Position numbers and translations under genes: made by a program. A DNA stretch of 64,000 bases, from assembly GCF_030160015.1 (NCBI RefSeq), contig NZ_BSNN01000008.1:1-64000 (forward strand). Direction: 5' to 3'. The DNA is from Amylibacter marinus. Lineage in GTDB: Bacteria > Pseudomonadota > Alphaproteobacteria > Rhodobacterales > Rhodobacteraceae. Positions 2,481 through 16,404 of the stretch are shown one piece after another. Position 1 is the stretch's first letter, and each line of letters starts with the position of its first letter. Below the pieces are notes generated by a model that worked only from the letters and a program-made list of their open reading frames with translations, did not search any database and was not told where the DNA came from.

Positions 2481-3002
2481 TTAAAGCATGGGTCCAGCAA
2501 GGATAAAGCGTTTGGCTTCTTCTGGCGGTAGAGGTTCAATCGGTTTGCTTTGAGTGCCACCCCAATGCTTTGCGCTTTCTACCACTTGGCGGAAATATCC
2601 GGTGATGGATTCCAAATGAGCTTCTCGTCTTGCAAGTTCGATGATTGAACGGCACTTAAAAATACGACCATGAATAAGATCGCTGACATAAATTGTTTCA
2701 CGCTTTTCATGGAAATATGCGTATCCGATGATCAATCCTAGTATGACGGATACGGTCATCGTTTGGGCTGTGCCTAAGCCAGCAACGATAGCTACTACCA
2801 CTGCACTCCCAAGAAATCCGAAGATACTGACGATCAACGAACGACGAATGAGTCCTGGCTGAATGGCTTCAACCAGGACAGCGTTATGCATTTTGTATTT
2901 CTCAATGAGATTTTGTTCTTCATCTGTTAGTTCAGCCTTAGCCCAAAGATTGAACGTAATGCGTCTTCCGGCTTTCTGTGACCGTTTGAATAATAAATTC
3001 AT
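2481..3002 (-). CDS. Two-TM membrane protein, unknown
   Basis: A 173-residue protein with two adjacent hydrophobic stretches at about residues 55-75 and 80-97, a basic N terminus (MNLLFKRSQKAGRR) and a soluble C-terminal half. No family is recognised. The stop codon is one base before the start of the VirD4/HerA-like ATPase, so the two genes are almost certainly translationally coupled. It may supply the membrane anchor that the ATPase lacks; this is inference from gene order. It starts downstream of the unusual dyad-rich spacer, which is therefore its likely control region. Confidence 0.65.
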   Translation of the reverse strand: MNLLFKRSQKAGRRITFNLWAKAELTDEEQNLIEKYKMHNAVLVEAIQPGLIRRSLIVSIFGFLGSAVVVAIVAGLGTAQTMTVSVILGLIIGYAYFHEKRETIYVSDLIHGRIFKCRSIIELARREAHLESITGYFRQVVESAKHWGGTQSKPIEPLPPEEAKRFILAGPML

Positions 3003-3013
3003 AAAATGATCTC

Positions 3014-3232
3014 CAATCTAAAAATATACCTTAGATTGAAACCAGAAGTGACCGCGCACGTCAAGAACATCAAAAGCGTCAAGTTGCATATACGGTTATA
3101 TGCTTCTTCATCATGAAATGATGAAGAAGTCACATTGGTGACCAAGACGAGAATGCGAAGGCTTAGTCACCAATGTGACGCGGTGTTTGCACATAGATTG
3201 AGGGGTAAAATGCATATATAGGGATATGCATT
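3014..3232. repeat. Array of nested inverted repeats in spacer
   Basis: Five dyads fill this spacer. (1) CAATCTAA 3014-3021 with TTAGATTG 3031-3038. (2) GCATATA 3086-3092 with TATATGC 3097-3103. (3) A perfect 12-bp hairpin, CTTCTTCATCAT 3103-3114, loop GAA, matching arm 3118-3129. (4) GTCACATTGGTGAC 3129-3142 and its exact reverse complement at 3166-3179. (5) AAAATGCATAT 3207-3217 with ATATGCATTTT 3224-3234. Dyads 2 and 5 share a TGCATATA-type half site and bracket 3 and 4. Neither flanking gene overlaps it. It could be a regulator-binding array, a structured RNA or an oriT-like site; sequence alone does not decide. Confidence 0.8.
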
Positions 3233-3247
3233 TTTAATGCACTTTCA

Positions 3248-6200
3248 TTAGCTTGAAAATGGCATCCAATAACTCGGGTCAAGAAACGATTTTGCTTTTC
3301 GTTTCCCGAACAATGCTTCACTCAAATCACGCTTAAGGTCACGGTCTACGTCAGCATTCGAATAGCTATTCCAAGCTGCCTCTAGCGCCGAGTTTGTGCC
3401 GTCTTGAGCAGCCACTTGGAAGTCTTTGAGTCTCGAATAGGTCATACCTGCAAAAATTCTTAAGGCCTTCGAATTCCCTCCTTCGAGCGCTGGTATCAGA
3501 AGATTCCTAAGAACATTATCCTTCTCGTTCTTGGATATCGAACTGCCAGTTTTCGCCACGTCTGACATTAGTCCGGGGCAAAGGCGCATGGCCTGTTCGA
3601 GAGAGTTTCCAGTCACCCCAGATATAGTTTCGCGCAACGTCCGCCAAATTTCTTCATGATACTTGTCGTCCATAGCGGTCAGCAGCGTATCGAGCGCCCC
3701 GTCACCAGCATCAAGCTCAATCTGTCCAGCTAACACACCTTTAATAACTTCTATGTACGGAGCTCGGAAAGTTCCGCCATCGAGCGTGCAGCCCGACGAC
3801 CCCAGTTTTTCGATGAGTACCTCTACTGTCGCGTCCATAGCCCTGATATGTTCGGGCCAAGCGCTCGAGTGTATGCCATGAAGCAGCTCGTCGACCTTAG
3901 CGTGCAAAGAATCCCATTGACGTGAACCGACTTGGTTGGTTGTCTTCAAGAATCCTAGGGGTAAGTCATCCAGTTCAAGTTTCTCAATCTCGTCCGTTTT
4001 GGCTCGCGCTGAATATTTGGTGAGCGCACTTGAAAGTGTATCGGTTGATAAGAGCTCGCGAAGGTAAGAAAAATGCCCCATTAGGCCGCTGAGCGTTAGG
4101 TACGGCGGCACCTCTCGCTCAAACATTTGGGCGACAACTTGACGAACAGCAATGTGGTCATGGTTTGCACTTCCGTATGATAGCCAGTGAGATGCACTGA
4201 AAGAATCTATCGCTTTCGCGGCGACGATGTCAGCTTGCGAGCTGGTTAGTTCTCCCTCGCCATTTAAGATGGCTTTGAACTCAACAAAGGCATCAGAACT
4301 GTCGGCGGGTCTAGTTCCATTGGGCAGTAACTTTGTGGGGGGAACAAGAGCTTCACCGAGCTTTTCCCTGCAGAGGAAAAACAGCAATGCTTGAGGCAAA
4401 TGACCTTTCTCGCCGTTAGACAGATTCTTGAAGAAATGGCCGTCGGCAAGCGCGTCGTCCACCTCAATCTCTGGACGCTTTTTTGTATCCACGTGCTGCC
4501 ATGTTAGCACAACAATATCAAGAAGATGCTTTACTCTCTCTTCGTCTAATTCTTCGCCTTTGCATTCTAACAAGCAGGCGTTCGCCAGCGACACCCATTC
4601 CTCATCGGTAAGGAGCTTGCACTCCTTGAACTGTTTGAGCGCGTTCAAGGCATTCGTTGGATACTTAGGAAACTCAGTTTCGAAATAATCAGCGTCAGCA
4701 TCTTCGCCAAACATTGAAGCGAAGGTTCTAGATATATTGGTTCTTGGGACTATCGCAGTGCCAAAGTCCGCCAGTTTGAAACCGCTCTCTGCAATGGAAG
4801 CGCTCAGGCCAAAAACAAAATCTGGCGACATGGGCAGTTTTTGACCGCGCAAAGACTTCCTCAAAGCATCGTGGCCGTTAAGGTCCGCCAGAGCCTCATC
4901 ACTCTCTGTTAGAAACTTGGAAACGTTCATGCCAGTGGAGTAGTTCGGGGTTTCCTGAGCGTTCACACTTTCCATGGCCGCTTTGGTGTAATTCTTGACA
5001 GTTGAATCTAGCGAACCGTTCGTTGCCAGTTTGAAAATGGGAATATATGCGAGGTGTTCTTCTTCCTCGACTGAGATGCTTTCAACTTTCTTGAAACCGT
5101 CAAGTAGTGCTCGAGTGATGTAGTCCTTTGCGTCTCCACTATAACTACGCAGCAGGTCCGAGGCGTTCCCAATGGACTGTTTCAAGTCACTCGTACTTGT
5201 CCATTCACCAATATTGTCTTGCAGAACGTCATCGACCCGATAGTCGAAGCCAGGCGCAGAGGAAATTTTGATCAAATCTTCCGCATTTTCAGAGATAAAT
5301 GCGGATGCAATTTCATCATCAAGCAGGATTTGAAAAGCCAGCTCCTCATCCACATTGAAAACCATCGCTGCGAGTTGCTCAGCGAGCTTTGGGTTCGCTG
5401 TCAGTCGAGTAATCTTGGCATTCAAGCCGTCCTCGCTATTGAGGATTGTGGGGTTGTTGGTCAGCCGATCTTGATGGGCGATGAATGCGGCAACTGTGGG
5501 AAGCTCGTACTTTCCATCCTGAAGTTCGTACAAGCTACTCAAGTCATTAACGAATGAAACGATTTGGCGCGGTGTCGTCACCCCACCTTCTACACGCAAT
5601 AGCTCGCAGAAAATTCGGTACGTTCTGAACCTATCGTCTGCTGACACCTGTTTAGGGAGCGCTTGCTCCAGCTTTTTAGCAAAAAATTCCCGTGCATTTG
5701 AAAGCACGGGTGGGGCCACAACAAGTATCTCATCGAACGTCTTTGAGAAGAGTTCACGCGATGCAAGACTGGTTAGGTCGCTTTCAGTCTCCGATTCATC
5801 GCCATCTTCGTTAACGTTGGCTTCAATGAGTTTGCGGTCGTAAGGAACGATTGCAGTTATGTCGGCATTTTTACCTGAGGCATGTTCTCCCTGCGTGCGC
5901 GAGAAAATTGACCGCACCAAGGCCCAATACTCTTTGATTTCTTTTTGAGGTAGCCTGTCGATGTTGTCTAAGACGACTACAACGCGGTCTGTCTTGGTCT
6001 GAACAACACTCAAAATTTCTCGAAGGGTCGAGTGAAATTCGTAGTCGTTCGGGTCAATTTCGCGGACTCTTTGAACAACTTTTTGGTCTTGATGCTGACG
6101 TGAACTGATAAGTAACAGTCTGGATATCGAAGTTCGGTAGCTTGACCACCATTTCTCATCTTTTTTTCGCTCAATGCGATATACGGCCAAAATAAGAGTT

Positions 6201-6775
6201 ATCGCCAAAAAACCGAGCAGGATGAGAAACGGTAAAGTTACTAGAAAACGCCATAAGCCTAAATCTGGGGCCTTGTTGACGGTGTCGAACGCGCTTTTCG
6301 CCCAGAAATAATACAAAGGAAGGAACGGCAAAAAAACCAATACGCATACCCCGTACCAATCGAGGATAGGTTGGTTATTGGTCTCGATTTCCTTTGTCTT
6401 GCCTTGAATTTGTTTTTCTATCTCCTTGAGCTGAGGCTTTTTCTTTGGGAAGCTCTGTTTGGCCCACGTTATGAAATGTTCTAAGTAGGACCTGCGGAAA
6501 CCAGAGCCCTGAGATTTCCAGATATCAAAGGTGAAAAAGTGGTACGTCTTCTTACCCTTGCCGTTTTGCTCTTCAAGTTTCCTTGCTGCCATCTCGACAA
6601 CACTGGATTTGCCGCTACCCCAAGAACCATCAAGGCCGATTGCACGGTCCCCGTCATCAAACTTGACGATTGCTCGAGACAGTGAATGTGCTGTCCGTTC
6701 ATGACCACCTCCGTGAAACAAGTCGGTCTTTGTCGGTTCATCTTGAATTATTTTTCTTATAACTTTTCTGCTCAT
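3248..6775 (-). CDS. KAP-family P-loop NTPase, membrane-associated
   Basis: A large protein of about 1175 residues. Walker A GSWGSGKSS lies at about residues 50-58, followed by FTFDIWKSQG. Two membrane segments at about 140-160 and 175-200 are inserted before Walker B (VVVVLDNIDRL, about 265-275). This order, with a transmembrane insert inside the NTPase domain, is the hallmark of KAP NTPases, a family that includes the phage-exclusion protein PifA. The C-terminal 850 residues match nothing I recognise and look helical and repeat-like. ATG at 6775 has AAGGCGAG just upstream; a TTG at 6808 is possible but has no such site. An anti-phage role is inferred from family and island context. Confidence 0.85.
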   Translation of the reverse strand: MSRKVIRKIIQDEPTKTDLFHGGGHERTAHSLSRAIVKFDDGDRAIGLDGSWGSGKSSVVEMAARKLEEQNGKGKKTYHFFTFDIWKSQGSGFRRSYLEHFITWAKQSFPKKKPQLKEIEKQIQGKTKEIETNNQPILDWYGVCVLVFLPFLPLYYFWAKSAFDTVNKAPDLGLWRFLVTLPFLILLGFLAITLILAVYRIERKKDEKWWSSYRTSISRLLLISSRQHQDQKVVQRVREIDPNDYEFHSTLREILSVVQTKTDRVVVVLDNIDRLPQKEIKEYWALVRSIFSRTQGEHASGKNADITAIVPYDRKLIEANVNEDGDESETESDLTSLASRELFSKTFDEILVVAPPVLSNAREFFAKKLEQALPKQVSADDRFRTYRIFCELLRVEGGVTTPRQIVSFVNDLSSLYELQDGKYELPTVAAFIAHQDRLTNNPTILNSEDGLNAKITRLTANPKLAEQLAAMVFNVDEELAFQILLDDEIASAFISENAEDLIKISSAPGFDYRVDDVLQDNIGEWTSTSDLKQSIGNASDLLRSYSGDAKDYITRALLDGFKKVESISVEEEEHLAYIPIFKLATNGSLDSTVKNYTKAAMESVNAQETPNYSTGMNVSKFLTESDEALADLNGHDALRKSLRGQKLPMSPDFVFGLSASIAESGFKLADFGTAIVPRTNISRTFASMFGEDADADYFETEFPKYPTNALNALKQFKECKLLTDEEWVSLANACLLECKGEELDEERVKHLLDIVVLTWQHVDTKKRPEIEVDDALADGHFFKNLSNGEKGHLPQALLFFLCREKLGEALVPPTKLLPNGTRPADSSDAFVEFKAILNGEGELTSSQADIVAAKAIDSFSASHWLSYGSANHDHIAVRQVVAQMFEREVPPYLTLSGLMGHFSYLRELLSTDTLSSALTKYSARAKTDEIEKLELDDLPLGFLKTTNQVGSRQWDSLHAKVDELLHGIHSSAWPEHIRAMDATVEVLIEKLGSSGCTLDGGTFRAPYIEVIKGVLAGQIELDAGDGALDTLLTAMDDKYHEEIWRTLRETISGVTGNSLEQAMRLCPGLMSDVAKTGSSISKNEKDNVLRNLLIPALEGGNSKALRIFAGMTYSRLKDFQVAAQDGTNSALEAAWNSYSNADVDRDLKRDLSEALFGKRKAKSFLDPSYWMPFSS

Positions 6776-6838
6776 AATCTCGCCTTGAAAAACACTTTGC
6801 TCTACCAATAATTGATTTCGCGCTTGAAATCACTCCCC

Positions 6839-6871
6839 AAAAGACGACCCTAGTGTTCACCTCGGGCCGTC
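6839..6871 (-). terminator. Terminator after the alpA remnant
   Basis: Read on the minus strand, GACGGCCC (6871-6864) pairs with GGGTCGTC (6850-6843), one G-U pair included, followed by TTTT at 6842-6839. A second small hairpin, CATGCT with AGCATG (6872-6890), lies just before it. The pair would end transcription from the GHKL gene and separate it from the KAP gene. The same two-hairpin layout follows the intact AlpA gene. Confidence 0.6.
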
Positions 6872-6930
6872 CATGCTCCAAAGAAGCATGTGGTTACTCT
6901 CGAACGAGTAAACGCTCTTCAAGCCATGCC
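6842..6930. repeat. Direct repeat copy A (alpA tail plus terminator)
   Basis: About 89 bases that align with 9345-9437 on the same strand. Shared blocks in order are GACGACCC (ACGACCC in copy B), TCGGGCCG, GCTCC, GGTTACTCTCG (6892-6902; 9398-9408), then a diverged stretch coding the AlpA C terminus on the minus strand. The copies differ at many positions and by small gaps, so this is an old or imported duplication. The two copies flank the GHKL gene and its small partner. Confidence 0.75.
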
Positions 6931-6947
6931 TAAACTTCACTCTCAAT
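6894..6947 (-). pseudogene. C-terminal remnant of an AlpA-like regulator
   Basis: Read on the minus strand this encodes IESEV-stop-AWLEERLLVRE-stop. It aligns residue by residue with the end of the intact AlpA gene at 9400-9579 (VEQEILDWLERRLLQRE). The internal TAG replaces the codon aligned with Leu in the intact copy. Only about 17 codons survive and they abut the stop codon of the GHKL gene at 6947, so the breakpoint is essentially at that stop. This is a recombination scar, not a gene. Confidence 0.7.
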
Positions 6948-8809
6948 TAAGCTGCATCTTCATTCTTAAACTTTTCAGACTTGATTAGTTCCTTGGCTAA
7001 CTTCCTCGCCTGATTAATGCTTTGCTTAAAATCATCCGCTGCAATGGAAAGCGATTCAGGGGTTGTTGCCCGATCTAAGTCATCGCTTGTCCAATCTTCC
7101 GCTCGCCGTTTGCTAATAGCAAAACATGCGGCCTTGCCAACTCGGTAGGCAAGTGAACGGCGTGCGACTTTCAGTATAACTTCGCGAACAAATTCCGGTT
7201 CAGCCAAATTGCGTAATTCTGGTTCTAGCTCGCCGGCCATACGATCAATCACAGAATAGAGTCCATTGATGAAAAGCGTTTGAGATTCTTTGTAGTAACG
7301 CCCAGCCCTTCCCTTGAGTTCTTTCTCGGCGATATCCTCTGGCTCAATTAGAATTTCAATTTCTGGCACTCTTTCAAGTGCAAGAGAAGATCTTGATGCC
7401 CGTGCACCATCAGGAGCTTTTCTCGCCTTATCCTTTTGTGCTCGTTGATTCCGTTCTGAACTATCCGCTGGATGATCGCTTATTTCCTCATGCAGCTCTA
7501 GTTTTTCAAAATCGTTGTCCACATTAGTACACTCCGTTGTATCAAAACCTTCTTCACTGTTTGACGAAGCAACGGCGGATTTATGATGAGATGGACGAAG
7601 GGTCGGCGTGGGCACACGAAATTCATCAAGAAGCTTCTGAAGGTCAGCTTGAATATCATCAAGCTTATCGTCGGACTTTGGTGATTCTGATTTGACAATG
7701 TCCTTCACCCAATCTGGCATCAACTCCCGTACATAGAACGCAAAATCGTTGGCTTCCATAGGTGAACGGTCGTTTGGCCAAGTCAGACCGTCTCGATATT
7801 GATTTGGCAAAGCAAGCTCGTCATCAATTTCTATTTCTACTGTGATTACCTTTGATCCGAATGGTACTCCAAATATCGGAGCAACCGCCGACCAACCTTT
7901 ACCTGTTTTCAAATCATAACGCTCCCCTTTGTGCACAATTGCACAAAATGTCGTCGAGGCTGTAGCGGGATTAGCTAAGGCACTAAGAGAGTGGCTGTAG
8001 TTTTTGTGCTTGGGATCATGGATGTAATGCACACATACGTCACCTTCTTTGATCCGTTCATGACGAGGCAGCTTCTCCAATACGCTTTCAAGCGTTTTCA
8101 ACTGGCGCGTTTTGCCTGTTTCATCCTTGCCACCTCCTTTTGTCATCGCAACATCAATTCGTACATCCAGTCCCTCTTTAAAGGATGCAAATCGTCTAAA
8201 AATATTGGATGTTATGTAACTGCGATCAACCTTTACCCCCAAACCGAGTGGGTAAACAACAGTGTCATGCTCGGGGCTTTCCCCAAATAAAACTACTTCC
8301 GTCCAATCGAATGTAACGTCAACGCCCTCTGCCGTTACTTGCTCAGTCACATCAAGGACAGTTTCAGATGATCCGTCTTGGAGTTCAAAATCGTATCGAA
8401 CATACGTACCTTCGTTGTCATCGAAGCCAATCGTAACCTCGTTCACTACACCGCTCTTACATGAACGATAGCGAATGCCATGCTTCGACATCGTCAAACC
8501 AGAGACCTTGGCACCAATACCAAAATTACCCTCTAGAGACATTTCTTTGTTAATGGAGGACGAAAGGTCTGTTGCCCGCCTTAGTTCTTCATCATCCATT
8601 CCAATACCAGTGTTCCAAAACGCCAATTTTTTCACGCCATCTATTACGACGGGATAAATCTTAACCTTGCGATCCCCCTCTGTAGCAGTTGCCGCGCTCT
8701 CCTCTGCATTCTTAAAAAACTCCCTTACAAGCGTACTCTTGGGCGCTTGATCAATTAAGCGGTTAATCAAAAAGCGTTCATCATTAATCTTTAGTGGCTC
8801 GGATGCCAT
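6947..8809 (-). CDS. GHKL (HSP90/MORC-like) ATPase
   Basis: A 620-residue ATP-binding protein with a Bergerat fold at the N terminus: N box with E30 and N34 (VREFFKNAEES), G1 box FWNTGIGM at about 64-71 and G2 box GNFGIGAK at 94-101. The usual DxGxG aspartate of G1 reads as Asn (NTGIG). The middle third is probably an S5-like transducer; residues about 400-460 are polar and low complexity, and the C-terminal 150 residues are charged and helical. It lacks histidine-kinase, MutL and gyrase features. It begins 8 bases after the small gene 8818-9054 and should be cotranscribed with it. The specific function is unknown; a defence role is inferred from the island. Confidence 0.8.
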   Translation of the reverse strand: MASEPLKINDERFLINRLIDQAPKSTLVREFFKNAEESAATATEGDRKVKIYPVVIDGVKKLAFWNTGIGMDDEELRRATDLSSSINKEMSLEGNFGIGAKVSGLTMSKHGIRYRSCKSGVVNEVTIGFDDNEGTYVRYDFELQDGSSETVLDVTEQVTAEGVDVTFDWTEVVLFGESPEHDTVVYPLGLGVKVDRSYITSNIFRRFASFKEGLDVRIDVAMTKGGGKDETGKTRQLKTLESVLEKLPRHERIKEGDVCVHYIHDPKHKNYSHSLSALANPATASTTFCAIVHKGERYDLKTGKGWSAVAPIFGVPFGSKVITVEIEIDDELALPNQYRDGLTWPNDRSPMEANDFAFYVRELMPDWVKDIVKSESPKSDDKLDDIQADLQKLLDEFRVPTPTLRPSHHKSAVASSNSEEGFDTTECTNVDNDFEKLELHEEISDHPADSSERNQRAQKDKARKAPDGARASRSSLALERVPEIEILIEPEDIAEKELKGRAGRYYKESQTLFINGLYSVIDRMAGELEPELRNLAEPEFVREVILKVARRSLAYRVGKAACFAISKRRAEDWTSDDLDRATTPESLSIAADDFKQSINQARKLAKELIKSEKFKNEDAA

Positions 8810-8817
8810 ACAATCAC

Positions 8818-9054
8818 CTATAATTTAAATTTATTGTCACCATTATTTTCAGTAGACGAGTTAAACTTGCGCTCAACTTCGCTAGTTGCATCGCGCAGCG
8901 CTTTAATCAATTTTTTGATGTCAGCGTCCGAGTATTCATATGCTCGGCGATTGGAAAGATTTCCAATTTTGCGAATTGCATCAAGCGCACTTTGCGCCCG
9001 ACCTTCCGCCAATCTTACAAATTTCTCTCTCTTTTCGCTTACAGAAACCACCAT
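8818..9054 (-). CDS. 78-residue charged helical protein, GHKL partner
   Basis: A short protein beginning MVVSVSEKREKFVRLAEG and rich in Lys, Arg and Glu, with a central IGNLSNRRAYEYSDADI stretch. I recall this kind of small protein next to ATPases and nucleases in variable islands, but it has no assigned function. The ATG at 9054 has AGGAGG three bases upstream; TTG at 9075 and ATG at 9072 lie before that site, so I placed the start at 9054. It is the first gene after the AT-rich promoter region and is followed at once by the GHKL ATPase, suggesting a two-gene module. DNA binding or regulation of the ATPase is a guess. Confidence 0.7.
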   Translation of the reverse strand: MVVSVSEKREKFVRLAEGRAQSALDAIRKIGNLSNRRAYEYSDADIKKLIKALRDATSEVERKFNSSTENNGDNKFKL

Positions 9055-9344
9055 ATACCTCCTGAAATTCATCAAATATTTTATAAATTAAAATCCAAAA
9101 ATATGCAACAAAGTTATAAATTTCTTTGAGATATTCATAAAATACGAGAATAAAAAACCGTATCACATTGTAAATTAAAAATTTTTAGAAACTATTTACA
9201 TTAATAATATGCTCTTTGAACTGACAGGTCGGTCCTTTGATTTAGTTCAACGATGTTCAAAATATAGCATTGTGTTTATGTCATAGAGATGATTCCAATC
9301 TCAACTAAACGCCATCAATGTTCACATTAATACATTTGAGTTGA
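9055..9344. promoter_or_regulatory. Very AT-rich spacer, promoter of the GHKL module
   Basis: No gene is visible here. The part from about 9076 to 9220 is strikingly AT-rich (long runs of A and T), unlike the flanking genes. It must hold the promoter for the leftward small gene and GHKL ATPase. I could not pick one convincing -35/-10 pair among many AT-rich candidates. AT-richness of this kind attracts H-NS-like silencers in other bacteria, and the region may be a target for AlpA or a xenogeneic silencer. Confidence 0.45.
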
Positions 9345-9437
9345 AGAACGACCCAACCTTTGATAGTCGGGCCGCCCCGCTCCGAAAGGAGCTTGCTGGT
9401 TACTCTCGTTGCAATAAGCGCCGTTCCAGCCAGTCCA
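9345..9437. repeat. Direct repeat copy B (alpA tail plus terminator)
   Basis: The intact partner of the repeat at 6842-6930. It covers the last codons and stop of AlpA (stop at 9402-9400) and its downstream hairpins: GGAGC/GCTCC arms at 9379-9392, and the arms at 9349-9354 and 9369-9374. The second stem has a G-U pair on the minus strand and only a weak T tail, so it is a poorer terminator than copy A. Confidence 0.7.
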
Positions 9438-9579
9438 ATATTTCCTGTTCAACCCATCCCACCCTGTTTGGACCCAGTTGTACCCGTTTAGGGAATAAAC
9501 CTGCCTTTTCCAGTCGTGCTATGTGTTGGGGCGAATATAAAACCAACTCTTTCAGCGCCTTCTTCGATAGTATCCTCAT
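9400..9579 (-). CDS. AlpA-family regulator
   Basis: A 59-residue helix-turn-helix protein (MRILSKKALKELVLYSPQHI at the start, GLFPKRVQLGPNRVGW in the middle, ILDWLERRLLQRE at the end), the standard layout of AlpA/prophage regulatory proteins. Family members activate excision or integrase genes in prophages and islands. ATG at 9579 has GGAG eight bases upstream; an in-frame start at 9621 lies before that site and would add a tail that does not resemble AlpA. It is divergent from the PKD-like gene and about 1 kb from the integrase. Confidence 0.8.
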   Translation of the reverse strand: MRILSKKALKELVLYSPQHIARLEKAGLFPKRVQLGPNRVGWVEQEILDWLERRLLQRE

Positions 9580-9737
9580 CACAATGTCTCCTATGTAAAT
9601 AGGAGCATCGCGATGCCCCAAGGGTTAAGCCTCGAGAACACATCCTTTCTATCATGGGTTGATTGAATTGAAAGCACTTAGTAGATTGAAGCTGCTAAGG
9701 AAAACGAAAATTTATAGCAATTTTAGGAAACATATAG

Positions 9738-10550
9738 ATGCCCAGTGAAGCCACTATACCAATTGTTACGGCAATTATTGGCGCTGTGGTTGGTGCGATA
9801 TTGGCATGGTTATTAGGCTTCGTCGATTTACGAACTTACCCGCCGAAGGCAATATTGTCTCCCTCAGGACTTGTGCCCATAGTAGCTGGTGAACTTGTAG
9901 AATTTAATGGTGCTAGTTCTAACGATCCACAGCAGCAGGATTTGGAATATCAATGGTCAGTTGCAGGCTCCAAAATTGATGAAACACACATCGCTTCATG
10001 CAAGTCAAAGAAACGAGAAATTTTAGAATGTAAATTTTTTAGACCGGGTACTTTTGGGGTAACGTTAAAGGTTACCAACGAAAAAGGGTTAACTGACTCA
10101 ACAAACAGTTCAGTTCAAATTTCGACATCAAGAGGGTACGCTGTACTGGTTCTAAATCGTGAGAACCCAAAAGAAAACAATCAACTACAACGCATTTTTT
10201 CAAAAGCAATCAACTGGCCAGAGGTTGTTGCCCTGGCTGACGGCGAAATTCTTGCCCTCTGGAATCCTGATAAAGAACAATTTATCTATGCAACAACTTT
10301 AAATCAAAACTTAGATGAAGCTGTTCAGCTCTTATCCAACTTACCTGAACCACACTCTGGAACATTAGTTATTACGAGATGGATGAGGCCTGCCGCAAAA
10401 ATGATTCAAGACCAGTTAGGCGAAATAGGCTTTAAGCTAGAGCTTGAAGATGCTCCGACAAGTAATATCCGCTCAATGAGCGTAGAAGATAGAAAATCTG
10501 GATTTGCGCATGTCGGTTCTTTGGAGGACATTCGGAGCTTTTTTGAATGA
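9738..10550 (+). CDS. Membrane-anchored PKD-domain protein, unknown
   Basis: A 270-residue protein. Residues about 5-28 form a membrane helix (IPIVTAIIGAVVGAILAWLL), and about 35-132 look like a PKD/Ig-like fold (VEFNGASSNDPQQQDLEYQW, then FRPGTFGVTLKVTNEKGL). The C-terminal 135 residues look alpha/beta and are not recognised. The ATG has AGGAAA upstream. It is the only rightward gene of the island, divergent from AlpA and convergent with the integrase (3-base gap). Its base composition is as AT-rich as the rest of the island. Surface sensing or adhesion is possible, but nothing here proves it. Confidence 0.6.
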   Translation: MPSEATIPIVTAIIGAVVGAILAWLLGFVDLRTYPPKAILSPSGLVPIVAGELVEFNGASSNDPQQQDLEYQWSVAGSKIDETHIASCKSKKREILECKFFRPGTFGVTLKVTNEKGLTDSTNSSVQISTSRGYAVLVLNRENPKENNQLQRIFSKAINWPEVVALADGEILALWNPDKEQFIYATTLNQNLDEAVQLLSNLPEPHSGTLVITRWMRPAAKMIQDQLGEIGFKLELEDAPTSNIRSMSVEDRKSGFAHVGSLEDIRSFFE

Positions 10551-10553
10551 ATT

Positions 10554-11675
10554 TCAAGAACCTATTGGGTGCACTAAATAGGCGTCATATTCTGAAACTG
10601 CGTGGCGCATTTCATCCATATATGAATGCCTGTTATAAACAGCCGCCACCCCACTAATCGTCCCCGAAACATGATTCAATAACTTCTCGGTAACATGAAT
10701 GGGTGTGCCGATCTTGGCATGCACTGTGGCAAATGTACGACGAAGGTCATGTAGGGTATACGGCTCAACATCCTCCAAACCTTCGTCAAAACGCTTCTTA
10801 TGCCAAGCCCACGTGGTAAACGGCTTTTCATAATCCGTGGCGGCAGGAAATAATAGATCACCTGTATCAGGCAATCGTGCAATTAATTCTTGCGCTAATG
10901 GCGACAATGGGAAGCGATGCTCTTTCTTGTTCTTGGCAAAACCATGTGGAAACACCATTTCGCCATCATTGATCCAAGATCGGCGGAACTGCCCTACTTC
11001 CGAACGTCGTTGACCGGTTAGTAAAAGCAATTGAACAATTGGGCCAAATGGAAACGGTGTTTCGATGGCTCGTAAGTAAACCTTCCGAAGTTCATCTTCG
11101 GATAGGACGCGGTCACGTTGAACCGAATTCTGCTTCATTGGTGGTACAACCGAGTGATCAATCAATCCGTGACGAACGCACCAATTCATCATAGTGCGAA
11201 TAGCGACATAGGCATGAGATTGTTCCGAAGGAGTAGAAGAAAGTTTGGAAATAACTTTCATCACCTGTTGGCGATCGACTTCTCGTATCTCACCTTTAAA
11301 CTTAAAGTGCTTGTTTAATAGGCGGCGATAGTCAGCAACAGTACGTGGTTTGTTACGGCTTTCGCAGTCAGTGAGAAAACGTGACTTCGCATCTTCGAAA
11401 GAAATCACCTGTCCCCGTGGCACAACAAGCTCCTCTTCCAACGCGTTAGCTGAAAGCAACTGTTTGGCTTGTTTTCGTGCATCAGAAAGTGAAAGCTCTG
11501 GGTAACGCCCCAAAGTCTTGCGTCTTCGTTTTTCTCCCAGCAATACGATATACGATTTACTACGCGTCGAACACCGAATGCCAAAATTGGGTGTTAGTTC
11601 ATCCCAATAGGTCACTTGCCCATTTTGAGACAAAGGTAACTTCTTCACAGCTAGATCAGTCAATCGAATACGCAT
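10554..11675 (-). CDS. int: Tyrosine recombinase (island integrase)
   Basis: A 373-residue phage/island integrase. An arm-type DNA-binding region with LGRYPELSLSDARKQAKQLL occupies residues 1-75, a core-binding domain about 92-175, and the catalytic domain the rest. Visible active-site residues are R223 (TGQRRSEV), H309 and R312 (TLHDLRRT), H335 (LLNHVSG) and the nucleophile Y347 (VYNRH). All are present, so the enzyme looks active. Its 5' end faces the tRNA-Cys fragment 140 bases away, the usual arrangement for an integrase next to its attachment site. Confidence 0.92.
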   Translation of the reverse strand: MRIRLTDLAVKKLPLSQNGQVTYWDELTPNFGIRCSTRSKSYIVLLGEKRRRKTLGRYPELSLSDARKQAKQLLSANALEEELVVPRGQVISFEDAKSRFLTDCESRNKPRTVADYRRLLNKHFKFKGEIREVDRQQVMKVISKLSSTPSEQSHAYVAIRTMMNWCVRHGLIDHSVVPPMKQNSVQRDRVLSEDELRKVYLRAIETPFPFGPIVQLLLLTGQRRSEVGQFRRSWINDGEMVFPHGFAKNKKEHRFPLSPLAQELIARLPDTGDLLFPAATDYEKPFTTWAWHKKRFDEGLEDVEPYTLHDLRRTFATVHAKIGTPIHVTEKLLNHVSGTISGVAAVYNRHSYMDEMRHAVSEYDAYLVHPIGS

Positions 11676-11815
11676 CTTAGGCTCATTTTAGGCTCAGAAA
11701 TCACATCCGTAATAGCGGTATCTTATGTTCAGCTATGTGCATGATTTTCATATTTATGTATATAAAATATATAGTTAAGTGAACATATGTTCAACAGTAA
11801 GTTCATACAGACACT

Positions 11816-11861
11816 GATTGCAAATCCGTGTACACCGGTTCGATTCCGGTACTCGCCTCCA
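11816..11861 (+). repeat. tRNA-Cys 3' fragment, putative right att repeat
   Basis: The sequence from 11816 reads as the 3' part of tRNA-Cys: anticodon loop TTGCAAA with anticodon GCA (11818-11824), T arm 11834-11850 (ACCGG TTCGATT CCGGT), acceptor strand ACTCGCC 11851-11857, and TCCA 11858-11861. No matching 5' acceptor strand GGCGAGT or D arm lies upstream, and the 5' anticodon arm (ACTGA) no longer pairs fully with TCCGT, so this is not a working tRNA. Integration into the 3' end of a tRNA gene leaves exactly such a copy at the far end of an island. The intact gene should lie to the left of the window. Confidence 0.8.
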
Positions 11862-12450
11862 ATAAAATCAGATCGTTAGGTATCTTTCGGCGTAACTATT
11901 TTTGATGACGTAATTGGACCGAATACTCCTTACCAATTAGCCCACGACCGCTTTAAATTTCTCTATTTTTTTGATGTACCTTACTCATTAAGACTACCAG
12001 TAATCAGGCTCCCTTGACTATTCAAATGCTCATGTTTGTCCCAAAGACGCTGACGCCTGATGGTTTGTAAATCGACAATTTCCGCTTTGGTTTTCACGCG
12101 GCATAACGTAGACATCATCCGTTTCTTCAGACCAATTGCGTGGTTATTACACGAAGCCCCGTTTTCTCGGGTTCCAAGACTGGCAGGAAGCTGACAAAAC
12201 ATAGCATGTAACTCGATCGCACGGGGTCACAACATGCGCTAAAAATTGATCGACCCCTTCACATTTTCAAGAACTTGTCTTCTGGTCGGTCGCCAGAAAT
12301 TCCAACCACATCCGCGCTGAAGATGTTTGTCGATATGACAAACGGCGTAGATAGAATTGGCGTTAATTTCATGGGAATTACCCCTTTAGAGTGATGTACG
12401 GACTTGGGGCTGAGCCGCCCTCTAGAATTCGGGCGACCCAGACAAGGGAT
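11862..12450. other. Spacer right of the island boundary
   Basis: No convincing gene in about 590 bases. A 73-codon frame on the minus strand (11981-12202) has no family resemblance or good ribosome site and is probably chance. A 37-codon frame at 12259-12372 is listed separately. The region is the chromosomal side of the island junction and may hold debris from past insertions. Confidence 0.4.
12259..12372 (-). CDS. Possible 37-residue secreted peptide or truncated gene start
   Basis: A short frame starting ATG at 12372, with AAAGGGG nine bases upstream. It reads MKLTPILSTPFVISTNIF, then SADVVGISGDRPEDKFLKM. It looks like a signal peptide with an Ala near residue 20 followed by the first residues of a mature protein, then TGA. 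It may be the truncated start of a lost exported protein. Support is only the ribosome site and the signal-like shape, so confidence is low. Confidence 0.25.
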   Translation of the reverse strand: MKLTPILSTPFVISTNIFSADVVGISGDRPEDKFLKM

Positions 12451-13284
12451 TTAGGACGCCGCTTTGATTTGCGCGACAGCTTCTTGCGTAGACCAAACAG
12501 CATTGGCCATGAAACGGAAATTGATTAGCGCAGCAAGGTAACCATCACCTTCGGGCAGCATCGCAGCAGCGGTCGCATCACGGACAACCGCCACTTCAAA
12601 ACCGTCTTCAAGCAGCTCACGCATATGAGATTCTGTACATAGGTTTGCTGACATACCTGCGAGGATCACCTGATCTACACCTTGCTTACGCAGTTGAAGT
12701 GACAGGTCATTGGTATCGTTGCCGTAAACCTTGTGTGGTGAAGTTACGATGGTCTTTCCATCGTTAATATACTGCTTGTACTGGGGCATCCAATCGGCGC
12801 CTGATCCTTCGAATCCGTCAAGATTCAGCGGGCCGGGGCGATCAAACATTCCGATTTTATGCATCAACTTTTCCAATGCGCCTTCAAATTTCCAACCGTG
12901 ATCGGTGGGATAGTAATAGTGCGGAGATACGGCGACGGTCATATTTGCCGCCTTGGCGGATTTAAACAGAGTCTCAATGTTCTCGACTGTGTTATGTTCC
13001 TCGACGCTGGCGCCGATCACGCCCCATGTCACACCATCTGGGTGCAGGAAATCGACCTGTGGATCAGTAACGACAAGTGCGGTGCGGCTCAGGTCTAGTT
13101 TCATATTTGATGGCGGAAGCGCGGGTTCCGCCGGCGGGGCATAGGGGTTGGCGGTTTGCGCCTGGGCAGAGGTTGTTGTCGCGGCCGCGGCGGCGGCGGT
13201 AACGGTCGTTGCCACACCGCCGCGCAGCGCGGCCCGCCGTGTTATCCGGCCATGATTGTGTTTTGGGTCATCGCATTGGCACAT
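12451..13284 (-). CDS. Tat-exported isochorismatase-family cysteine hydrolase
   Basis: A 277-residue protein with a twin-arginine signal (RITRRAALRGG, RR at 16-17, then an Ala-rich segment ending AQA at about 42). The mature part is an isochorismatase/nicotinamidase fold: D74 in VVTDPQVDF, K185 in SPHKVYG and C216 in MSANLCTES form the expected Asp-Lys-Cys triad. Most relatives act in the cytoplasm, so periplasmic export is less usual. The substrate cannot be told; amide hydrolysis is typical. It is divergent from an AraC regulator with about 125 bases between them, which probably contain both promoters and the operator. Confidence 0.85.
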   Translation of the reverse strand: MCQCDDPKHNHGRITRRAALRGGVATTVTAAAAAATTTSAQAQTANPYAPPAEPALPPSNMKLDLSRTALVVTDPQVDFLHPDGVTWGVIGASVEEHNTVENIETLFKSAKAANMTVAVSPHYYYPTDHGWKFEGALEKLMHKIGMFDRPGPLNLDGFEGSGADWMPQYKQYINDGKTIVTSPHKVYGNDTNDLSLQLRKQGVDQVILAGMSANLCTESHMRELLEDGFEVAVVRDATAAAMLPEGDGYLAALINFRFMANAVWSTQEAVAQIKAAS

Positions 13285-13409
13285 AATCTGTTCCTTTCAG
13301 TGTTTGTGTGATTTCAGGCTACAGCGCCCAATGTGCCTTTTTGTCTCGAATTCGTGCCCTTACTTAATATCTAGTGCCCATTCGTCCAAAAAGAGTTATA
13401 AAAGCGGTC

Positions 13410-14318
13410 ATGAGGTACGATTATATATTCGACGAGCTTGAGATTACGACCGATCCCTTCGCCCTATGCGAATTAAGTGGAGCGTGCACTTTGGGGATGG
13501 GGCAGGATACATCGGCGACTCTACACTATATATTGTCCGGCGATGGAGAGATCACATTCAAATCGCGCCCTCCACTGAAGGTCGCTCGCGGCTCGCTCGT
13601 CTTTGTACCGGCATTGCAAAAGCATAGCCTGAACAACTTTGGAACCGGTGGCGATCCTGTTCCAGATTGCAAGCCTGCCGAGATGAATCTATCCCGTTTG
13701 ATGGCGGGAACATGCGAAACGCACGCCGGGCAGATGACCGCTCTTTGCGCGCATGTCGGTGTGGGGCTGCGCGGTGTAAACGATATCATTGACCTAATCA
13801 AAGAACCGTTGGTGGAACATGTGTCGTCCTCCCACAATATGCGTCCAACCTTACAAATGTTGTTGCGAGAAGTGTCGCATCCGGGATTGGGAAGCCGCGC
13901 GATGATCAAGGCCTTGTTGACGCAATGCATGATCGCAATGCTGCGCGAACGCCTATCATCACAGGATGCTTCATTTCAATGGATGGCGGCCCTAGCCGAC
14001 CCATCTGTCTGGAATGCGCTGCGGTTGATGTTGGATAGGCCGGGTGACCCGCACACTGTCGAAAGCCTTGCAGACAGCGTACGAATGAGCCGATCTGCCT
14101 TTGCCAAGCGCTTTGCTGCCGCATATGGATCAGGCCCGATGGAGTTATTGCGAGAATTACGTATGCGCCGCGCTGGCGTCCTACTACGCGATACAGACCT
14201 TCCCGTGAAGCGTATTGCAGAGATGGTCGGCTTTGCATCCCGCAGTGCCTTCACCCGTGCCTTTGAGGGCCAAGCTGGGCTGTCTCCTCGAGCATTCAGA
14301 ACGGCACAACAATCCTAA
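13410..14318 (+). CDS. AraC-family regulator with cupin sensor
   Basis: A 302-residue protein: N-terminal cupin-like sensor (about 1-170, including YILSGDGEITFKSR), then two helix-turn-helix motifs of the AraC type (about 205-300; SLADSVRMSRSAFAKRFAAA and IAEMVGFASRSAFTRAFEG). I start it at ATG 13410; GTG at 13374 is also in frame. This subfamily often responds to small organic ligands or redox signals. It is divergent from the exported isochorismatase-like hydrolase and most likely controls it. Confidence 0.85.
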   Translation: MRYDYIFDELEITTDPFALCELSGACTLGMGQDTSATLHYILSGDGEITFKSRPPLKVARGSLVFVPALQKHSLNNFGTGGDPVPDCKPAEMNLSRLMAGTCETHAGQMTALCAHVGVGLRGVNDIIDLIKEPLVEHVSSSHNMRPTLQMLLREVSHPGLGSRAMIKALLTQCMIAMLRERLSSQDASFQWMAALADPSVWNALRLMLDRPGDPHTVESLADSVRMSRSAFAKRFAAAYGSGPMELLRELRMRRAGVLLRDTDLPVKRIAEMVGFASRSAFTRAFEGQAGLSPRAFRTAQQS

Positions 14319-14656
14319 ATGTTTAAGGCGTCGTCTGCGCTTTAGCGTCAAACCTTTCGGCATGGTTTTCTCTAGCCTTACGTCAAATCGGATTTTCACG
14401 AGAATCCAATGGCTTTGTGATCTCAGCCTGAAGGGGGATCGTGGAGAAATCATCATTTCACACACTAAAGGCAATCTCTTTATCTTTAATGTCACAAAAT
14501 TTAGCCGGATCGATTTTAGGCGAACAATTTGTCGCGCTAAATCCAGCGCGAGGCGCTAGAGCAATAGCCCCATTACCTCTCTAGTGAAGCAATGGGCGTT
14601 TCTGTGGATCGGTTTCTTCTATGATCAAAATCACCCTCAGCGCAGACACGCGAAAA
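14319..14656. other. Spacer, no gene seen
   Basis: About 340 bases between the convergent AraC gene and the secreted protein gene. Open frames here are short and overlap both strands without ribosome sites. A weak stem (CCCATT near 14570, AATGGG near 14590) could serve as a terminator for either gene. Confidence 0.35.
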
Positions 14657-15631
14657 TCACGGCTCAAGACTTGTGAAGCTGATGCTCTCGACACGCTTGT
14701 CTTGCCCAAAGACAATAACCGCATTCATGTGTGCAATATCTTGCACCCCCTCGGAGCAAACGAAGGCGCTGAATCTGTCCGCATCAGGTGCCGCACCCCT
14801 TGGAAGACCACCTAGTATCGCAATAACCTCGCCCCGCGTCAGACCAACCCGCAGCCCCGATGGCATGTCCCAAACCGGATCCGTGGCGCTCATCCCAATT
14901 ACAAGGTCATTCAGGATATCAATTTCCAAACCATGCGCGCTCACCCGGTTAATCTCGTGTCCATCCAACCGGAACAGCCCCGTTGGCTCGGGTGATCCAA
15001 GTTTGTGAAGTGTTGACCCGCGATCGCCCATCGCGATACCGCCAAACATAAATTCGGTTCCTGCCAAGCACCCGCCTGTCTCATCCAAAAACAAGATGGG
15101 TTCTGGGGGCACTACATCCCCTATCCAAGTTTTACTACGATCATCCCAGACCAGACCAGCAGCGTCCTTGGCATCATAGATTCCGCCGCCCCACCCATAG
15201 GTTACTGTGTCGGGAATGCATTCCAGCCTGCTTAGATTTTGGCCGTTCTGGGCTACATTGATCCAACCAAAGCGTCGGGGGCCAAGCGCCATCTCCTCTT
15301 CCGAAAACGGTCGATCAAATCCGCCAGCAACCTCATAACTGAAACCCTTGTTGTAGAAAGTGACCGTTTCACTGATCGCCTTACCTAAGCCCGACCATGG
15401 TTCAAAATCTACCTGTATCACGGTGTCTGACAAGACAAGATCAGGCGTTCCCGCGACCGGCCCGTAGCGATAGGTAGCGACCTGATCGTCAAAGCAAACA
15501 AAAACTTCGGTATTGCGCCCCTTGATCTGACAGGAGTTGAACACCTCTTGCCCCACCGGACAATCCGCCAACGCCACAGTGCCAAAAAGGCCAGCGAATC
15601 CGGCAAGATAAATTGTTAAATTTCGACCCAT
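14657..15631 (-). CDS. Secreted protein of unknown function
   Basis: A 324-residue protein with a signal peptide (MGRNLTIYLAGFAGLFGTVA, cleavage after ALA near 22). The mature part contains several cysteines (for example CPVGQ, SCQIKG, VCFDD, GCLAG, VCSEG) compatible with disulfides in the periplasm. The C-terminal third (SGLRVGLTRGEVIAILGGLP) resembles no domain I can name. ATG at 15631 has AAAGGG eight bases upstream; the longer frame to 15667 would precede that site. Neighbours on both sides are separated by long spacers, so context says little. Confidence 0.7.
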   Translation of the reverse strand: MGRNLTIYLAGFAGLFGTVALADCPVGQEVFNSCQIKGRNTEVFVCFDDQVATYRYGPVAGTPDLVLSDTVIQVDFEPWSGLGKAISETVTFYNKGFSYEVAGGFDRPFSEEEMALGPRRFGWINVAQNGQNLSRLECIPDTVTYGWGGGIYDAKDAAGLVWDDRSKTWIGDVVPPEPILFLDETGGCLAGTEFMFGGIAMGDRGSTLHKLGSPEPTGLFRLDGHEINRVSAHGLEIDILNDLVIGMSATDPVWDMPSGLRVGLTRGEVIAILGGLPRGAAPDADRFSAFVCSEGVQDIAHMNAVIVFGQDKRVESISFTSLEP

Positions 15632-16404
15632 ATTTTGGCCCTTTCGTAATATTATACTGCTCACCATTACGGTGTTGAAAAACCCACCAGAGGCGCTGGG
15701 AGACCATTAATAAATCAAGTTATACCGCCATTTCCGTTGCACCGGTATATGGGATCAATGCGGTTGCCATAAGCTTCCTCAGGCGATCATCTAAGGCACA
15801 TCAACGTGCAATGTCAAAACACCAAAATTCGGCCCAACGGGGCCTATGCGTCTCAAACCCACCTATCTAAACTATTTGTTGGTTTGGATGAATTTTCCCT
15901 GAAAACTCTGACATTTTTTGTGTCAAGAAGCCAAATGAGACCTGCTGTTGAGTTCACCTTGCCATTTCACCAGATCTTCGCTGGCGTCAGCCAAAGATAT
16001 GCCTCGGATTGCCAACGCGTATTTGGTTTCATCGGTTCACGAGTTTTACAACGCTGAATTTAGCTTCGATTGTTGCATCACTGGCTACTTCGCCTGACAT
16101 CTTCTACAAAGATGCTTTGGTGAAATCCGTCGATCCATTGTGCATGGTGCCTTGCGGAAAGGTCCTATACCGACCACACAAACAATAGTCTCGATTTGCA
16201 TTAGCGTTAATCCATTTCTCATCATCCCGAAATGCGATGATCGGAATTATCAACGTCAGCGGGTACCATTGCTACAAGCCCGAATGAAATAGTGGATCCT
16301 AGTTCTGGTAAAGCTAGGCCTGATTATCGTGTGAAAATTATCCACCCGCGCTTAGATCATGTGGAATCCATGACCACGAAGCGCGTTCGCTGCGTGGTTA
16401 AGAT
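15632..16404. other. Long spacer, probable gene debris
   Basis: About 770 bases without a supportable gene. Frames such as 15806-16057 on the plus strand have no family signal. On the minus strand near 15980-16050 a run reads IRGISLADASEDLVKWQGEL, which looks coding-like but is followed by stops. The stretch probably contains decayed genes. The maiA operator lies at its right end and is listed separately. Confidence 0.4.

Follow-up and report, generated by a model that had tools for sequence, protein, structure and literature searches.

How does the tail of an alpA gene come to lie directly behind a gene for a GHKL ATPase? This question is raised by a genomic island of Amylibacter marinus located at the start of contig NZ_BSNN01000008.1 (338,644 bp); we analyzed the first 64,000 bp of this contig, hereafter the window, and the contig start cuts the island. 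An earlier reading of this DNA, made from its letters and hereafter the sequence-only reading, described the last codons of alpA, its stop codon and two hairpins as duplicated on both sides of a module composed of the GHKL gene and a small partner, and proposed that cassettes enter at the alpA end and leave a scar each time. Our analyses confirm that the repeat exists and point to another origin: we consider it probable that this is an integrative island at tRNA-Cys fusing two islands of different lineage, with the second alpA end, which we refer to as the alpA′ remnant, as the seam.

A Second alpA 3′ End behind the GHKL Gene

The remnant (6843–6938) aligns with the 3′ end of the intact alpA gene (9345–9444), both on the minus strand, through the tail, the stop codon and both hairpins, which we designate H1 and H2 in the intact copy and H1′ and H2′ in the remnant. 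The local alignment score is 32, compared with a mean of 9.4 and a maximum of 17 in 2000 first-order Markov shuffles; a second scoring scheme gives 48 against a shuffle maximum of 29, and no part of the 64 kb overlapping neither copy scores above 13. The base-level alignment therefore places the identity of the two segments far above chance, and the GHKL gene and the gene for its 85-aa partner do lie between them. A repeat search recovers 48 nt at 71% identity between the copies, and the whole 3′ ends are 73.1% identical. The remnant begins 8 bp behind the GHKL stop codon and translates as EV*AWLEERLLVRE*, confirming the in-frame TAG that the sequence-only reading had reported at this position. 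Where that reading counted 17 codons, an alpA tail is indeed present, of which 14 codons and the stop align confidently, followed by two hairpins that fold in both copies.

Besides the TAG in the tail, the remnant shows decay in a loop that has changed from GTGCACA to GTGAACA, and H2′ has one unpaired position. These features bear on one explanation of the remnant, namely that it was retained or acquired as a preformed 3′ end, with H1′–H2′ forming the transcript end and insulator of the GHKL operon and the alpA′ tail carried along as a passenger. The hairpins still fold (z −3.9) and are directly followed by TTTT, whereas the coding part has its TAG, and this explanation is compatible with a fusion of islands. 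However, the unpaired position and the changed loop of H2′ speak against it, as does a GHKL relative in locus L096 that has no such hairpins, and it would leave the lineage of the genes beyond the remnant unexplained; we consider it improbable.

Two Lineages Meet at the Remnant

Relatives of AlpA were collected from two sources. Among 248 genomes of the family, 15 gave a match at E ≤ 1e-10; a larger scan, of 84,980 species genomes, gave 192 relatives, the best 80 of which we refer to as the 80 loci. The lineage comparison used 21 loci chosen from the 80, plus L003 from the A. marinus genome. The alpA gene closest to the remnant is that of L100, with 90.6% identity (89–91%) over 96 nt including the hairpins, followed by those of L115/L025 and L109/L077 at about 87%. 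Since the remnant is 90.6% identical to L100 and 71–73% identical to the copy beside it, it descends from a different alpA. This lineage rules out a duplication of the island's own alpA, and the description of the segment as duplicated does not hold. The intact alpA of the window is in turn closest to that of L098 (88.6% in the head, 80.4% in the tail), its head being 78.8% identical to that of L100. L100 also carries the backbone genes of the window island, o173 and a HerA/TraD-like ATPase gene (71.6% over 2830 nt to window 3234–430), and between its hairpins and o173, where the window has a KAP NTPase gene, L100 has two other genes encoding 823 and 329 aa with no Pfam match. With the remnant and o173–HerA resembling L100 and the intact alpA resembling L098, the window island is therefore a mosaic and the remnant its seam.

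The contig that holds the window also has, at its right end and adjacent to a different tRNA fragment, a second int–alpA–hairpin island (L003, G000:C8:318700-338644), followed by a 730-aa gene on the opposite strand. The integrases of the window and L100 are 46% identical, and those of L100 and L003 are 89% identical; upstream of int, the latter two loci share a fragment of a tRNA other than tRNA-Cys (tRNA-Thr by eye). The presence of a second alpA island at the far end of a contig whose start cuts the first would suit an assembly artefact in which two islands of one genome were misjoined at their alpA 3′ ends. However, the remnant and the second alpA have an identity of only 80.9%, which is poor ground for a misjoin, and the TAG and loop changes point to age, so that we regard an artefact as very improbable.

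Remnants Elsewhere and a Probable Fusion of Two Islands

We searched for further remnants with two covariance models: R1, of the tail and hairpins, built from 20 sequences that include both window copies, and R2, of the hairpins only. In 394 genomes of the family, R1 gives 47 matches at E ≤ 0.01, of which 33 have E ≤ 2e-4. Four of these 33 lack an alpA head: besides the window remnant, these are G294:C8 with hairpins only, G214:C6 with about eight codons and G286:C21 with a decayed 3′ half. The remaining 29 include two damaged copies (G012 and G333) and one that a contig start truncates (G213:C25). One of the 14 weaker matches, G364:C4, was examined and is coding sequence. R2 reports 74 of the 80 alpA loci and is weak for the L100 lineage: in the window it scores the remnant at 19.2 bits and leaves the intact alpA unreported, and in the A. 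marinus genome it finds one of three copies, so tail-less remnants of the L100 lineage may be missed. Within the 80 loci, which provide about 436 kb downstream of alpA by a rough count, R2 finds one clear extra hairpin pair without alpA (L123, 30.3 bits, 2.3 kb behind the intact alpA and preceding a block with a NotI-family enzyme, Replic_Relax and HerA) and a weak one (L173, 5113–5167, 19.5 bits, upstream of the intact alpA). Weak extra matches also occur in L161 (19418–19528, minus strand, 19.8 bits with R1) and L089 (11137–11204, 14.9 bits with R2); L085 (27.2 bits with R1) was dropped as a remnant, as it reads as coding sequence.

The idea of a scar left each time is not borne out by one clear and one weak extra pair in 80 loci and four headless matches among 33, nor by their 5′ break points, which differ from case to case. 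The remnants are ragged, consisting of hairpins only (L081, L123), about eight codons (L083) or a decayed 3′ half (L084), with scattered break points. Heads without tails also occur (L036 and L042); in L036, a tail-less alpA head (3407–3648) is 93% identical to an intact alpA (14094–14338) located 10.7 kb downstream in the same direction.

The tRNA-Cys 3′ fragment that forms the att at the island end is found again, in all 45 of its 45 nt, at G000:C2:3141-3185, within a complete tRNA-Cys 3.1 kb from the start of contig C2; no complete tRNA was found in the window or in L180. The island therefore probably continues there over an assembly gap, a contig join that we infer from the repeat. It shares with other tRNA islands a tyrosine integrase and flanking direct repeats derived from a tRNA 3′ end. 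Sequence comparison shows two lineages, a seam, a cargo border, a variable slot and both att ends in this island.

Given the two lineages, the ragged break points and the rarity of remnants, accretion of islands with loss of the DNA between them fits best. The left part would consist of the att, the integrase, the PKD gene, alpA with H1–H2, and the DUF4145–GHKL pair. The right part would be the residue of a second island, composed of alpA′ minus its 5′ part, a cargo slot now occupied by KAP, and the o173–HerA backbone. The most likely history is a tandem arrangement of the two islands, from which a single deletion, starting directly after the GHKL stop codon and ending within alpA′, would have taken out the intervening DNA. 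In islands of this kind the alpA module is a common border, with alpA presumably transcribed into a short mRNA that has hairpins at its 3′ end and with cargo starting just past H2. The tandem alpA modules of L036 support this fusion reading. Several points weigh against it. The tRNA fragment of L100 and L003 differs from tRNA-Cys, so the second island's own integrase is not expected to have placed it at tRNA-Cys, and this speaks against a simple tandem insertion at a single att site. The tandem state was not found in this lineage, and the seam is known from one assembly, the same-genus genome searched having given no R1 match. Finally, fusion offers no explanation for a seam within 8 bp of the GHKL stop codon.

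A Variable Cargo Slot between H2 and o173

The comparison of cargo slots covered the window and all nine distinct loci in which an o173 match follows alpA, leaving aside HerA islands without o173. The distance from H2 to o173 is 231–304 bp in three of the ten (L109, L136, L158), 0.9 kb in L173 and 3.7–7.3 kb in six, and no protein of at least 150 aa is common to two slots at E 1e-5 among the 10 islands. The same backbone is thus combined with different or almost no cargo, which indicates that cargo varies at the alpA end. Past the slot, the window and L100 become homologous again no more than about 15 bp from the stop codon that ends the last cargo gene, at the 20-nt motif TGCATATCCCTATATATGCA; in L109, which has nothing in the slot, the motif lies about 40 bp behind the hairpins. 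This motif is expected 0.01 times by chance at up to three mismatches; at up to one mismatch, it is restricted to the window, L100 and L109/L077. We rejected it as a right-hand border common to all islands given this restriction and the different leader of other o173 islands. In L149, the slot (10250–15897) contains three opposite-strand genes that by eye resemble a type I restriction system.

Counting A. marinus itself, relatives of the GHKL protein occur in two and relatives of KAP in three of the 394 family genomes, and none of GHKL was found in viral contigs. In L096 a relative of the 85-aa partner adjoins the GHKL relative. R1 finds no match next to the relatives of GHKL (L096) and KAP (L095), and only 8.2 bits (E 0.46) in L097. 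The presence of these relatives without hairpins argues that the repeat is part of the island backbone and does not move with a cassette. The entry of cassettes at the alpA end thus stands insofar as there is a cargo border at H2 and a variable slot behind it, and fails insofar as the repeat is not part of the cassettes. The order GHKL–remnant–KAP, far from being fixed in all relatives, a pattern that the sequence-only reading had set against its own proposal, was not seen in any relative searched.

These data also bear on a more specific form of cassette entry, in which a circular GHKL cassette would have inserted at the alpA 3′ end by site-specific or homologous (Campbell-type) recombination, by analogy with elements that use tRNA 3′ ends, bringing a new tail and hairpins and displacing the old tail. 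Such an insertion would account for the complete alpA, the cargo and the second tail in one step, and L123 has the same order of alpA, cargo, hairpin pair and older cargo. However, it predicts an intact head of the remnant's lineage, and the head is nearer to L098 than to L100. The ragged ends of remnants in general, the GHKL and KAP relatives without hairpins, and the location of the island integrase's att at tRNA-Cys argue against it as well, and we think it unlikely to be how the GHKL gene arrived.

The alpA Module as a Cargo Border

The border at H2 extends beyond the o173 islands. With L101, L102 and L116 left out, 77 alpA loci remained, and we compared the 74 of these whose sequence extends for at least 400 bp behind H2. 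In 1573 of 2682 locus pairs, homology at the nucleotide level stops no more than 15 bp from the end of H2; in 1077 it stops before that point, and in 32 it continues for more than 15 bp past H2, five of which exceed 40 bp. On the upstream side, homology mostly stops 30–90 bp before alpA. Judged by these alignments, the alpA module, which spans about 300 bp up to the end of H2, is a general border in islands of this kind. Complete tRNAs of many kinds are located 187–665 bp upstream on the same strand in 26 of 60 loci scanned (of the 80), and 31 of 117 loci, some of which overlap, encode somewhere an integrase that resembles either of the two A. marinus integrases at E < 1e-20. With regard to phage satellites (PICI, PICMI), AlpA relatives number one in IMG/VR and one 37.5% match in phages; none was found in plasmids.

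Three loci of one genome (L029, L030 and L031 of G055) contain stretches of 3.6–3.9 kb that are 94–98% identical and start 64–269 bp before alpA, and these stretches sit behind three different tRNA genes (Leu, Lys, Phe). Heads and bodies therefore do get rejoined near alpA.

The alpA 3′ Hairpins and Rfam Trans44

R1 matches all 80 loci at E ≤ 5e-6, and 78 score at least 47 bits (the match in L116 is shortened); L101, cut by a contig end, and L102, a weak match, are the exceptions. In 38 hairpin pairs hand-chosen from 59 extracted, 11 of 17 base pairs have changed on both sides, and 95.7% of cells are paired versus 91.5% in shuffles, with none of 500 shuffles as high; sliding the pairing partners as a control destroys the covariation pattern. 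H2 alone has double changes in nine of 11 pairs and 98.8% of cells paired. By eye, most loops have the form NTGCAN′, where N′ is the complement of N (as in GTGCAC, TTGCAA and CTGCAG), and TGCAC occurs in 32 of 79 called hairpins.

The sequence-only reading took the hairpins for a terminator. They do fold, and the number of T residues in the 10 nt behind the called hairpin ranges from 0 to 7 over 79 loci (H2 was missed in a few), so that not all need be intrinsic terminators; we rejected plain intrinsic terminators as a general description on account of these inconsistent T runs. We also rejected sites in double-stranded DNA, as H2 pairs vary via G-U far more than via mismatches. This pattern of variation suits a single strand, most simply mRNA; single-stranded DNA would also be compatible. 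A further proposal makes the alpA mRNA 3′ end an active joint, at which the hairpin pair, with its conserved TGCA loop, would be recognized single-stranded by the machinery forming the joint and cargo exchanged precisely between H2 and the o173 leader, across islands located at different tRNA genes, with the alpA tails between modules as records. We regard this proposal as improbable.

The intact module (window 9355–9615, minus strand) matches Rfam family RF02649, Trans44, with 145.7 bits (cut-off 108), as do four of the six other loci given to this model (L167, L123, L003 and L109); the remnant loci L081 and L083 do not match, and the window remnant is not reported up to E 1. Trans44 is named as a small RNA (sRNA), whereas an AlpA-like reading frame of 61 codons can be translated from its printed consensus, and the family model ends inside H2. 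In the sections of PMC4809877 that concern it, trans44 of Ruegeria pomeroyi is a 265-nt RNA detected by Northern blot and is marked "Yes" in a table, which we take as validation by quantitative reverse transcription PCR. We infer that the alpA transcript is a short mRNA with its end at the hairpins, which suggests that Trans44 is, at least in part, alpA mRNA.

Features of the Window Island

Coordinates and domain matches are listed in Table 1. The R1 scores of the two window hairpin pairs are not independent of the model, as both copies are in its training set. Between KAP and o173 there is also a strong inverted repeat (3108–3199), with a chance-level Rfam match of 22.9 bits (cut-off 65.3).

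Table 1. Features of the A. marinus island in the window, listed from the att toward the contig start
Feature	Position	Strand	Evidence
tRNA-Cys 3′ fragment, island end (att)	11817–11861	+	45/45 nt found again at G000:C2:3141-3185
Tyrosine integrase	10554–11675	−	Pfam Phage_integrase 43.5 bits, Arm-DNA-bind_3 34.9 bits, both above cut-off
PKD-domain protein, divergent gene between int and alpA	9738–10550	+	Pfam PKD_4 27.5 bits, PKD 27.0 bits, above cut-off
AlpA, intact (frame; likely start 9579)	9400–9621	−	Pfam Phage_AlpA (PF05930) 36.7 bits, cut-off 21
H1 (9379–9392) and H2 (9345–9378), 3′ of intact alpA	9345–9392	−	Fold z −4.5; R1 62.9 bits
85-aa small partner	8818–9075	−	DUF4145-like, weak, below cut-off
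GHKL (HATPase) protein, cargo	6947–8809	−	Pfam HATPase_c, HATPase_c_3, E 3e-4 to 4e-4, below cut-off
alpA′ tail remnant, in-frame TAG and stop	6894–6938	−	Local alignment; match to L100 alpA
H1′ (6872–6890) and H2′ (6843–6871) of remnant	6843–6890	−	Fold z −3.9; R1 67.9 bits
KAP NTPase, cargo in slot between H2′ and o173	3248–6808	−	Pfam KAP_NTPase 71.3 bits
20-nt motif TGCATATCCCTATATATGCA, right-hand border of slot in the window/L100 lineage	3211–3230	−	Recurrence in L100, L109/L077
o173, backbone gene	2481–3002	−	Relatives behind alpA in nine fetched loci; no Pfam or NCBIfam match
HerA/TraD-like ATPase, backbone gene	431–2560	−	Pfam TrwB_AAD_bind 21.9 bits, barely above cut-off; 78.6% to L100

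Relation to Known Islands and Implications

The gene cassettes of integrons, in which different cargo adjoins a conserved folding element, resemble the alpA border. Each integron cassette has a recombination site of its own; here, the element belongs to the backbone instead. The tRNA islands with sequential integration described in part of PMC12458937 have in common with the window island a tRNA target, AlpA-like excisionases, stacked elements, recombinase vestiges and mixing of content. The vestiges described there are integrase fragments, whereas in the window island an alpA tail and its RNA hairpins have been left, and the hairpins also mark a cargo border. The Pseudomonas int–alpA islands at tmRNA, as presented in part of PMC12595487, likewise have a tyrosine integrase, alpA, variable cargo with defense genes, and a direct repeat of the end of a structural RNA gene. 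They differ in that int and alpA lie at opposite ends with the cargo between int and a shared region, whereas here the alpA module adjoins int or the tRNA and cargo follows H2. In the literature searched, a scope that excluded subscription papers, we found no description of an alpA–hairpin cargo border or of alpA-tail seams. Accretion of islands with vestiges is already known; the sharp RNA-marked border is a new detail.

The alpA′ remnant is a good marker of a mosaic island. Moreover, a covariance model of the alpA 3′ end can locate cargo slots, nearly empty slots and seams without knowledge of the cargo, and this provides a sequence-level handle on the stacking of islands and the swapping of their cargo in marine Alphaproteobacteria.

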